Below, in pieces: positions 28,585-30,892 of a stretch of DNA of 64,000 bases. The DNA lies in contig NZ_FCOT01000013.1 in assembly GCF_900046455.1 (NCBI RefSeq), forward strand, positions 744,001 to 808,000, in the 5' to 3' direction. The position numbers and the translations under genes are program-made. Within the stretch, counting starts at the first letter, position 1; each line of letters starts with the position of its first letter. The stretch comes from Cellulomonas timonensis. Its GTDB lineage: Bacteria; Actinomycetota; Actinomycetes; Actinomycetales; Cellulomonadaceae. The notes under the pieces were generated by a model. That model was not told the origin of the DNA. It saw only the letters and a list, made by a program, of their open reading frames with translations, and searched no databases.

Positions 28585-29040
28585 ATGACGCGCGTCCTCC
28601 TGCTCAACGGTCCCAACCTCGGCCGCCTCGGCGTCCGCGAGCCGGACGTGTACGGCTCCGCGTCGTACACGGACCTCGTGGCCGCGGGGGAGCGGTGGGG
28701 CGCCGAGCGGGGCCTCGACGTGGTGGTGCGGCAGACGGATTCCGAGTCGGAGCTGGTCGGCTGGTTGCATGAGGCCGTCGACAGCGGCGCGCATGTCGTG
28801 CTGAACCCCGCCGCCTTCACGCACTACTCCTACGCGGTGCGCGATGCGGCGGCCCAGGTGACCAAGGCCGGGCTGGTGCTCGTCGAGGTGCACCTGTCGA
28901 ACCCGTACGCCCGCGAGGAGTTCCGGCACACGTCCGTCATCGGCGCCGTCGCCACCGGGACGATCGCCGGGTTCGGCTTCGACTCCTACCGGCTGGCGCT
29001 GGACGCCGTCGCCGGGCGGGTCGGGCAGTCCTCGGTTTGA
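28585..29040 (+). CDS. aroQ: Type II 3-dehydroquinate dehydratase
   Basis: Third step of the shikimate pathway; 151 residues, the normal size of this dodecameric enzyme. The active-site motif [18 protein letters not shown] contains the Arg and Tyr of the mobile loop, [18 protein letters not shown] the binding Asn and catalytic His region, and [19 protein letters not shown] the second His. The ATG has no ribosome site but stands six bases after a TAGGCT box. With aroE, aroC, aroK and aroB it leaves only DAHP synthase and EPSP synthase outside the window. Confidence 0.97.
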
Positions 29041-29043
29041 TCA

Positions 29044-29061
29044 ACAAGGCTCTAGCCTTGT
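29044..29061. promoter_or_regulatory. Upstream palindromic operator (copy 1) of the SatD-like gene
   Basis: ACAAGGCTCTAGCCTTGT: 8-base arms (ACAAGGCT / AGCCTTGT) around two central bases. It starts 4 bases after the aroQ stop and is identical to copy 2 placed exactly 28 bp downstream. Confidence 0.8.
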
Positions 29062-29071
29062 AACAGGCGGA

Positions 29072-29089
29072 ACAAGGCTCTAGCCTTGT
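29072..29089. promoter_or_regulatory. Promoter-overlapping palindromic operator (copy 2) of the SatD-like gene
   Basis: The same 18-base palindrome as copy 1. Its right arm contains the TAGCCT -10 box (29081-29086) and ends three bases before the ATG, so a bound protein would block transcription initiation. Confidence 0.82.
29081..29086 (+). promoter_or_regulatory. Leaderless -10 box embedded in operator copy 2
   Basis: TAGCCT, six bases (TGTGAC) before the ATG at 29093. It lies within the operator, consistent with repression. Confidence 0.65.
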
Positions 29090-29092
29090 GAC

Positions 29093-29728
29093 ATGTTCAT
29101 CCTGACGATCGACCAGCAGGGCAGCCGCCGCGTCGGCGACCGGGTCGGCGAGCTCCTCGCCCACCTCCGGGCACGCGGCGACATGCATCGCGGGTCGGCA
29201 GGCGTGGTCGCCCCGTTCGAGCGGACCGTTGGAGACGAGGTGCAGTGCGTCCTCGACGACCCGGCCCTTGCGGTGGACGTGGCCCTGGCGGTGCTGCGGC
29301 TCACGGGCTGGAGCATCGGCATCGGCGCGGGCGACGTGGACGAGCCCCTGCCCGAGTCCTCCCGCGCCGGATCCGGACCCGCGTTCGTCATGGCACGCGA
29401 CGCCGTCGAGCAGGCCAAGAGCCGCCTGAAGGTGGTGCCCCTGGTGGTGCACGGCGCCGACGAGGAGCGGGCGCGTGAGGCCGAGGCGGTGCTCGTGCTG
29501 CTCGGCGCCACGTTGCAGCGCCGCACCGCGGCCGGATGGGAGGTCGTGGACGCCGTCGAGCGCTCCGGCGAGACCCGGCAGGACCTGATCGCCAGCCGCG
29601 TCGGCGTCACCCAGCAGGCGGTGAGCCAACGGCTGCGGACCGCGCTCTGGCTCGAGGAGCAGGCAGCCCGGCCGGTGGCCGCCCGGCTGCTTGCCGAGGC
29701 GGCGGCGGGTTCTCGCGACGCGCCCTGA
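29093..29728 (+). CDS. SatD-family protein with C-terminal helix-turn-helix
   Basis: 211 residues. The N-terminal two thirds match the SatD pattern: LTIDQQGSRR at the start, FERTVGDEVQCVLDDP (the GDEfQ-like centre), WSIGIGAGDVDEPLP and GPAFVMARDAVEQAK. The C-terminal part is a helix-turn-helix (RQDLIASRVGVTQQAVSQRL). SatD proteins are poorly understood; the name comes from a streptococcal secretion/acid-tolerance locus. Two identical palindromes before the gene, one over its -10, suggest that its own HTH represses it. The next gene encodes a membrane protein typical of SatD partners. Confidence 0.75.
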   Translation: MFILTIDQQGSRRVGDRVGELLAHLRARGDMHRGSAGVVAPFERTVGDEVQCVLDDPALAVDVALAVLRLTGWSIGIGAGDVDEPLPESSRAGSGPAFVMARDAVEQAKSRLKVVPLVVHGADEERAREAEAVLVLLGATLQRRTAAGWEVVDAVERSGETRQDLIASRVGVTQQAVSQRLRTALWLEEQAARPVAARLLAEAAAGSRDAP

Positions 29729-29772
29729 TCCGCCAGACTCGTCCCGCCGCCGTCCGCATCGAAGGAGATCCC

Positions 29773-30213
29773 GTGCACCCCGTGCTCATGCTGCTCACCG
29801 TCCTGGCGATGCTGGCGGTGAGCGCCGTGGGCGGGGGGGTGCTGACCGCCGGCGTGCTGCACCTGGCCGGGCGGTCCTCCGACGCGGGGTCGGCGAAGGA
29901 CGAGGCTGCGCCGCACGACGAGGGCGCCCCGCGGCCCACCGCCCTCTCCGACGGGCCTGACGGCGACCGGGCGCGCGCGGTGCTGCGCGGGGGGACGTGG
30001 ATCGGGCTGCTCGAGCGGGTGGCGGTGACCGGGTGCCTGCTGGCGGGGGAGACGAGCGGGATCGCGATCGTCGTCGCCGTCAAGGGCCTGGGCCGTTACC
30101 CGGAGCTGCGGGAGAACCCCGGCGCGTCGGAGAGGTTCGTCATCGGGACGCTCACCTCGATGATCTGGGCAGCCCTGGTGGGGCTCGCCGGCCGCGCGAT
30201 CCTGCTGGCCTGA
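29773..30213 (+). CDS. Membrane protein partner of the SatD-like regulator
   Basis: 146 residues, function unknown. There is an N-terminal helix ([21 protein letters not shown]), a charged cytoplasmic or extracellular linker, and a C-terminal region with [39 protein letters not shown] and [19 protein letters not shown]. That G-x-hIGxLER ... AKsxxRfpEL ... fxIGTLxS pattern is the one I know from the C-terminal part of DUF3307-type membrane proteins that sit beside SatD. GTG 29773 follows AAGGAG (29762-29767). The 44-base gap to the SatD-like gene suggests one transcript. Confidence 0.7.
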
Positions 30214-30235
30214 GGTTGGGAAGCGTCGCGCGCTG

Positions 30236-30241
30236 TACGAT
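30236..30241 (+). promoter_or_regulatory. Putative -10 box of efp
   Basis: TACGAT preceded by TG. A TTGGGA upstream is only 14 bases away, so the -35 is uncertain. Transcription from here gives a leader of about 80 bases. Confidence 0.4.
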
Positions 30242-30328
30242 GGTCGGCGGTCTGGTCGCCCCCTCCTGCAAGGCGAGGTGAGCGCGGCGACGACTCGCAC
30301 ATTCTCAACTCGACAGGAAGCAGCTCTC

Positions 30329-30892
30329 GTGGCCACCACCAACGACCTCAAGAACGGCACCGTGCTGAAGATCGACGGCCAGCTCTGGGCTGTCGTCGAG
30401 TTCCAGCACGTGAAGCCCGGCAAGGGTGGGGCGTTCGTCCGCACCAAGCTGAAGAACGTCCTCTCGGGCAAGGTCGTCGACAAGACGTTCAACGCCGGCC
30501 TGAAGGTCGAGACGGCGAACGTCGACAAGCGCGACATGCAGTACCTGTACAAGGACGGCTCGGACTACATCTTCATGGACACCGACACGTTCGACCAGAT
30601 GCCCGTCGCGGAGACGGTCGTCGGCGACGCGGCGAACTTCCTGCTCGAGAACCAGAGCGCCATGGTCGCGACGAACGAGGGCGTGCCGCTGTACGTCGAG
30701 CTGCCCCCGTCGGTCGTGCTGGAGATCACCTACACCGAGCCGGGCCTGCAGGGCGACCGCTCCACGGGCGGCACCAAGCCCGCCACGGTGCAGACGGGCT
30801 ATGAGATCCAGGTCCCGCTGTTCCTGGAGACTGGCACGAGGGTCAAGGTGGACACCCGCGACGGGAGCTACCTCGGCCGCGTGAACGACTGA
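30329..30892 (+). CDS. efp: Translation elongation factor P
   Basis: Relieves ribosome stalling at polyproline; 187 residues. All three beta-barrel domains are present: [21 protein letters not shown], the tip loop [15 protein letters not shown], and the C-terminal [28 protein letters not shown]. The loop residue that is modified in some bacteria is Lys here (PGKGG), as in most actinobacteria. GTG 30329 follows AGGAAG (30315-30320). nusB starts two bases after the stop. Confidence 0.97.

Follow-up and report, generated by a model that had tools for sequence, protein, structure and literature searches.

We have analysed a window of 64,000 nucleotides from Cellulomonas timonensis (contig NZ_FCOT01000013.1, positions 744,001 to 808,000), in which twin palindromes stand directly in front of a gene for a SatD-like protein, followed by a gene for a small membrane protein. 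Our results make it probable that the SatD-like protein regulates, and most likely represses, its own two-gene operon, acting through an array of operators with a 28-bp period, sensing a nucleotide with its palm domain and restraining its membrane partner. In the mechanism that we propose, the C-terminal helix-turn-helix (HTH) would bind pairs of inverted 5-bp half-sites (ACAAG-N8-CTTGT) placed every 28 bp, and protein bound to site 1, over the −35 element, and to site 2, over the −10 element and the start point, would exclude RNA polymerase. The fixed period of 28 bp, kept in arrays of three to four units, could reflect contacts between neighbouring dimers and give a steep response. A nucleotide, probably bound or made by the palm domain, would set the affinity for DNA, and the regulator would hold the small membrane protein, the second product of the operon, at a safe level.

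The initial annotation of this DNA had proposed a tightly autorepressed two-gene module. Autoregulation and the module are supported by the arrays, by their covariation with the protein and by the occurrence of arrays almost only at this gene, whereas repression is preferred to activation because of the geometry of operator and promoter. What we add to that annotation is the finding of 28-bp arrays in relatives, a recognition code, a cyclase-like fold for the regulator and an asymmetric, near-obligate partnership; with them, a SatD family that was named but functionally empty gains a predicted fold, a probable DNA target, a three-position recognition code and an almost obligate partner.

The putative operator array and its promoter

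The elements in front of the SatD-like gene are the following, the counts referring to the set of 108 loci described below.

29044..29061, no strand assigned: operator site 1 (predicted), ACAAG-N8-CTTGT; its right arm holds the −35 element
29058..29063, plus strand: putative −35 element TTGTAA; TTG is found here in 97/108 loci, and the element is not picked up by a strict consensus scan
29072..29089, no strand assigned: operator site 2 (predicted), identical to site 1; it ends 3 bp before the ATG and holds the −10 element
29081..29086, plus strand: putative −10 element TAGCCT, 17 bp after the −35 element; TANNNT is found in site 2 of 92/108 loci

The 18-mer ACAAGGCTCTAGCCTTGT is present twice, at 29044-29061 and 29072-29089, at a distance of 28 bp from start to start and with 10 bp between the copies, just as the initial annotation had described it. 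It is palindromic at 16 of its 18 bases, and its ACAAG-N8-CTTGT arrangement amounts to 5-bp half-sites with an 8-bp gap. No further exact copy of ACAAGGCTNNAGCCTTGT is found in its own genome (4,057,828 bp), and these two places are the only ones in the window within three mismatches of the 18-mer, against 0.01 expected. The looser pattern ACAAG-N8-CTTGT has three sites genome-wide, two of which are the twin itself, while the reversed control pattern has seven; since the control is the commoner of the two, a single loose site is meaningless.

SatD-like relatives, with the own genome counted each time, were found in 128/150 genomes of the family, 150/297 of the order and 20/396 of a sample of the phylum. 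Loci were taken from five related loci, the 30 best matches of the family and the 20 best matches of the phylum (one already in the set), together with 80 places of the order and 39 of the family picked by hand, and 167 were analysed after removal of identical copies. A period scan that assumed no sequence, run on every second locus (n=84) over periods of 20-40 bp and even gaps of 2-12 bp, gave a single peak at period 28, with a mean score of 27.3 at gap 8 against 16.9-18.9 at all other periods. The array precedes 135/167 of the related genes at p≤0.05 and 129/167 at p≤0.01 (100 mononucleotide shuffles per locus), so the arrangement of the palindromes is conserved at orthologous loci. The half-site itself varies by lineage (among the 135 loci TCAAG in 53, ACAAG in 35, TCAAC in 7, ACAAC in 7, TTTAG in 4, TGAAG in 3, and others). 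Three to four units at the same 28-bp period are present in 33/135 loci, where a chance site of such quality arose in 10/6750 random tests. Because the period runs on upstream of the promoter, beyond the −35/−10 spacing, we infer that it probably comes from contacts between proteins.

The distribution of the arrays bears on whether they are sites of another, global regulator, with the SatD-like gene merely downstream. Many actinobacterial regulators bind similar inverted repeats, as is generally known. The TCAAG twin, with two mismatches allowed, matches in 69/150 genomes of the family and its reversed control in none; the ACAAG twin, with three mismatches, matches in 47/150 and its reversed control gives 10 matches. 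Among the places listed, which came from 56 of the 69 matching genomes for TCAAG and from all 47 for ACAAG, 74/75 and 53/58 arrays, respectively, are no more than 150 bp upstream of a SatD-like gene, four places being common to both searches. Regulation by the array therefore looks local to this gene. Arrays occurring almost only here, single loose sites whose number in the own genome does not exceed background, and an operator that changes along with the recognition helix of the SatD-like protein itself all speak against a global regulator, which we consider improbable.

A wider regulon was also considered. The off-gene places among those listed (1/75 and 5/58) were not counted as targets, since for ACAAG the reversed control at three mismatches gave its 10 matches in 150 genomes. 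At three of these loci (L183, L184 and L187) the array lies at or near the end of a similar open reading frame (ORF) and resembles a terminator. Two others (L182, G055:C31:6261-6306; L186, G046:C6:239278-239323) are twin-like sites beside short ORFs that are phage-like by eye, and could be due to chance or to mobile elements sharing the operator. One further place (L185, G073:C1:4321814-4321859) is a lone, near-perfect twin palindrome distant from the SatD-like gene, and one genome (G028) has a single TCAAG-twin match but no SatD-like gene that we could find, the partner gene being at a contig end.

The promoter was studied in 108 of the 135 loci, those in which 2-6 bp separate the end of an array from the start codon (3 bp in 87, 4 bp in 16); the remaining 27 were excluded. 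Positions 15-17 of site 1 read TTG in 97/108 loci, and TANNNT occupies positions 10-15 in site 2 of 92/108 loci but in site 1 of 8/108; TTG and TA are present jointly in 86/108, with the hexamers 17 bp apart. Among the 92 loci with this −10 element, the distance to the start codon is 6 nt in 76 and 7 nt in 15, and Shine-Dalgarno-like bases are found in just 3/108 loci. Because the −35 and −10 elements lie within the sites, the −10 element is 6-7 nt from the start and Shine-Dalgarno bases are rare, the sequences point to a conserved leaderless promoter superimposed on the operator array. A conserved operator overlapping the −35 and −10 elements, the mark of an autorepressor, is thus found at these loci (array in 135/167, both elements in 86/108). 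These counts lend good support to the proposal of twin operators over a leaderless promoter, and the TAGCCT that had been noticed in the second copy, six bases ahead of the ATG (29081-29086, with the ATG at 29093), is the −10 element.

It could be argued that the repeats are a promoter or terminator signature and no protein operator, since TTG and TANNNT lie inside the repeats and site 1 begins 3 bp past the stop codon of aroQ. There is no terminator-like site in 28850-30350, however, and the arms of site 1 equal those of site 2 although site 1 has no −10 element. At some loci third and fourth units lie upstream, and the repeats covary with the protein. We regard a signature of this kind as very improbable.

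The SatD-like protein and its recognition helix

The SatD-like gene and the parts of its product are listed below.

29093..29728, plus strand: putative SatD-like autoregulator, 211 aa, leaderless ATG
29093..29509, plus strand: predicted N-terminal nucleotidyl-cyclase/GGDEF-like palm domain, residues 1-139, with conserved D7, D48 and E49
29528..29641, plus strand: predicted HTH, residues 146-183; its recognition helix 174-183 corresponds to 29612-29641

The window protein matches the Pfam family SatD (PF16264) with 19.1 bits and an expectation value (E) of 0.0011, under the curated cut-off of 29 bits, so we call it SatD-like. Homology is reached through intermediates, as 61/80 aligned relatives (own copy included) match the family at E≤0.1, the best at 3.3e-12, which bears out the label first given to the gene. 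The C-terminal HTH predicted at the same time is confirmed in the structural model, where helices span residues 146-158, 163-170, 174-183 and 186-205.

That the SatD-like protein itself binds the arrays is suggested by covariation. We computed the mutual information of each half-site base against every protein column (211) in the 108 loci. Base 1 shares most information with residue 174 (0.88 of 1.12 bits), base 2 with residue 175 and base 5 with residue 179, while bases 3 and 4 hardly vary; all three residues are within the recognition helix of the model. An A at base 1 goes with Q174 in 41/45 loci and a T with another residue in 68/68, in a set of 113 loci formed from the 108 by adding eight of other registers and leaving out three with G at base 1. 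The pairing of base 2 with residue 175 rests on few variants, 98/108 loci having C with Q. As the best-covarying columns for the three variable half-site bases lie in the recognition helix, the SatD-like protein is very probably the binder.

Kinship was checked with independent pairs on a tree built without the HTH. For base 1, residue 174 again came first, with 4.4-5 pairs changing in the same sense, none in the opposite sense and about 3-3.6 showing no change (two runs); for base 5, residue 179 came first, with 7.6, 0 and 3.4, respectively. The support that survives correction for the tree is nevertheless modest.

In the predicted structure, the N-terminal domain has the palm fold of the nucleotidyl cyclase/GGDEF superfamily. 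Its acidic residues are conserved across the 80 relatives (D7 in 72, D48 in 76 and E49 in all 80), and from their place they would be equivalent to the metal ligands. Judging from this model, the domain likely binds or makes a nucleotide, so that the signal would be a nucleotide.

Several observations weigh against the autorepressor reading. A strict consensus promoter scan of the window reports nothing at the operators. Such an array was not detected at 32/167 loci, and it is rarer where the membrane partner is missing (8/18 loci against 127/149; Fisher p 0.0003, a value that ignores kinship, two of the 18 loci being cut by contig ends). In the covariation, the second-best columns follow closely (161 for base 1, 201 for base 5). 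When supported branches only are used, base 1 has three independent switches, with residue 174 changing accordingly in one; base 2 has two pairs, and base 5 has eight, of which about four go with 179 and 0.3 against it (median p 0.125). For the palm domain, sequence search sees the relation to cyclases weakly (Rv1264, E 0.11), and Foldseek yields no E below 0.001. F98 also seems to occupy the position where cyclases have their catalytic Asn, and the domain may therefore be inactive.

The non-consensus promoter elements, at which that scan finds no promoter, would also suit an activator or dual regulator that recruits polymerase from site 1 at −35 and uses site 2 for tuning. A further point in its favour is that 55/80 members match the Pfam family Sigma70_r4 at E≤0.1, as they do many other HTH models. 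Against this, site 2 covers the −10 element and the start point, and the same spacing sets the protein on both elements; activation is accordingly an unlikely alternative to autorepression.

The SatD-like protein resembles the SatD family (PF16264; sat operon of streptococci) in its similar length, domain order, GDE hairpin motif and C-terminal HTH, and differs from it in staying under the Pfam cut-off. Unlike class III adenylyl cyclases and GGDEF diguanylate cyclases, with which it shares no significant sequence match, it is short and fused to an HTH. Among the matches listed, mostly outside subscription journals, the accessible parts of the literature on SatD describe no operator, no cyclase fold and no role as a DNA-binding autoregulator, and the matches listed for DUF3307 likewise give no account of SatD as a DNA-binding autoregulator. 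In the part of PMC12005413 available to us, a table calls satD a 'DNA-binding protein'.

The membrane partner and a possible guard role

The second gene of the operon is the following.

29773..30213, plus strand: gene for a small membrane protein of 146 aa, with a GTG start and AAGGAG at 29762-29767; the product has four predicted helices and is assigned to no Pfam family

That the next gene encodes a membrane protein, as the initial annotation had it, is thus borne out. The model shows four predicted helices (predicted local distance difference test score 74.8) and no evident soluble ligand-binding domain, and a fold search gave no match below E 4. Across 57 members no Pfam family is assigned, and the alignment has 11 invariant residues, five of them charged. 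The partner had been taken for the DUF3307 type. Proteins with DUF3307 (PF11750) are also small membrane proteins beside a SatD-type gene, but DUF3307 is not among the 17 families matched by any of the 57 members at E≤1, and nothing in the own genome matches PF11750; we reject this identity.

A homolog of the partner lies downstream in 149/167 loci, in two of them (L163, L110) on the other strand and so in a separate transcript. Searched alone, the partner is found in 293 genomes from two panels (137/150 and 178/297, 22 shared), and 289/293 have a SatD-type gene, either a relative of the window protein (234) or a PF16264 protein over the cut-off (55, two of these calls being reached by summing weak pieces). 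Of those 55, the ones with a listed partner place have the SatD gene within 1.5 kb of it in 35/35, so PF16264 SatD genes of the order keep the same partner family. In three of the four remaining genomes the partner sits at a contig end. In the fourth (G675), reading of the 4.2-kb neighbourhood shows no SatD-like ORF, and the partner is altered at 3/11 invariant residues. The second gene hardly persists without the first, as in toxin-antitoxin operons, while in the reverse direction 24/258 SatD-like genomes have no partner, a number that may include contig breaks.

Toxin-antitoxin operons that are autoregulated share further features with this module, namely a small HTH regulator as first gene, tandem palindromes over the promoter and asymmetric co-occurrence; unlike them, the regulator here carries an enzyme-like domain. 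In streptococci, satD is essential across the emm1, emm28 and emm49 strains of S. pyogenes covered by a meta-analysis, and yet it is accessory, being present in 178/249 S. pyogenes genomes (both from the part of PMC11323703 available to us). Since satD is essential yet accessory, and the partner hardly survives alone, the analogy suggests that the SatD-like protein acts as repressor or antitoxin-like guardian of a potentially harmful membrane protein.

A second analogy is Panoptes, an operon whose two genes likewise encode a palm-domain protein and a transmembrane protein. There the membrane protein OptE is silenced by a nucleotide that OptS makes; OptS relies on D6 and D57 of its palm fold, and OptE is toxic in the absence of OptS (accessible text of PMC12657218). 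The SatD-like protein has a putative metal Asp at a similar place (near residue 6-7) and a second one later (D48, presumably equivalent to D57). The module described here differs in that its partner has no evident soluble domain and that it is common in the order; the terms helix-turn-helix and DNA-binding are absent from the accessible text of PMC12657218.

It is therefore conceivable, though we hold it less likely than not to apply, that the SatD-like protein keeps a membrane effector inactive by repression and possibly by a nucleotide, and that loss of the regulator or of its nucleotide frees the effector, which would be compatible with autorepression. The asymmetric partnership (289/293 in one direction, 24/258 lacking the partner in the other), the sole orphan partner with its three lost invariant residues, the essential but accessory satD, and the palm residues of OptS together with the toxicity of OptE would fit such a role. 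On the other side, the partner lacks an evident soluble ligand-binding domain and its toxicity would follow by analogy, the module is widespread in the order and frequently adjoins housekeeping genes, it has no match in PADLOC (library of 2023), the mCpol structure 9mnr reaches rank 28 by Foldseek with E 0.45, and the count of 24 genomes lacking the partner may include contig breaks. We would go further only as speculation, and doubt that it holds in full, in proposing that SatD-type proteins combine a cyclase fold, acting as nucleotide enzyme or sensor, with an autorepressing HTH, and that with the partner they form a widespread chromosomal guard module, in which nucleotide and repression restrain a membrane effector until the nucleotide is depleted or the regulator lost. 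If true, this would tie housekeeping chromosomes to nucleotide-gated membrane effectors, and would account for a satD gene that streptococci can lack but that is essential wherever they carry it.

Genomic context

In the window, the gene order is presumably aroC-aroK-aroB-aroQ, SatD-like gene, membrane protein gene, efp and nusB, with names taken from the translations and aroQ also tested by search. In Arthrobacter (L009, 3001-4259), the two-gene module stands between what we take to be a gene for an M50 protease-like protein and, past a short ORF, an ispG-like gene, and not between aroQ and efp. The two genes seem to travel together from one housekeeping locus to another.

Sites of the GAAG/TAAG type and a TATNAT-like element just before the ATG were seen by eye at PF16264-type loci of the order and at three distant loci of the class, and at some of these the sites are twinned at 28 bp. 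An automatic site search before PF16264-type genes gave mixed, register-shifted results and was not used as a count. At one such locus (L180, G545:C1), the PF16264 SatD gene is transcribed away from the partner, their start codons being 37 bp apart, and a GAAG-type site covers the gap.

There is no SatD-like relative in 50,697 phage records, and there are two in 72,556 plasmid records. On the Tsukamurella plasmid NZ_LR134449.1 (L189, 17.0-18.2 kb), a SatD-like gene is directly followed by a gene for a 200-aa hypothetical protein, and genes for SPFH and NfeD proteins adjoin.
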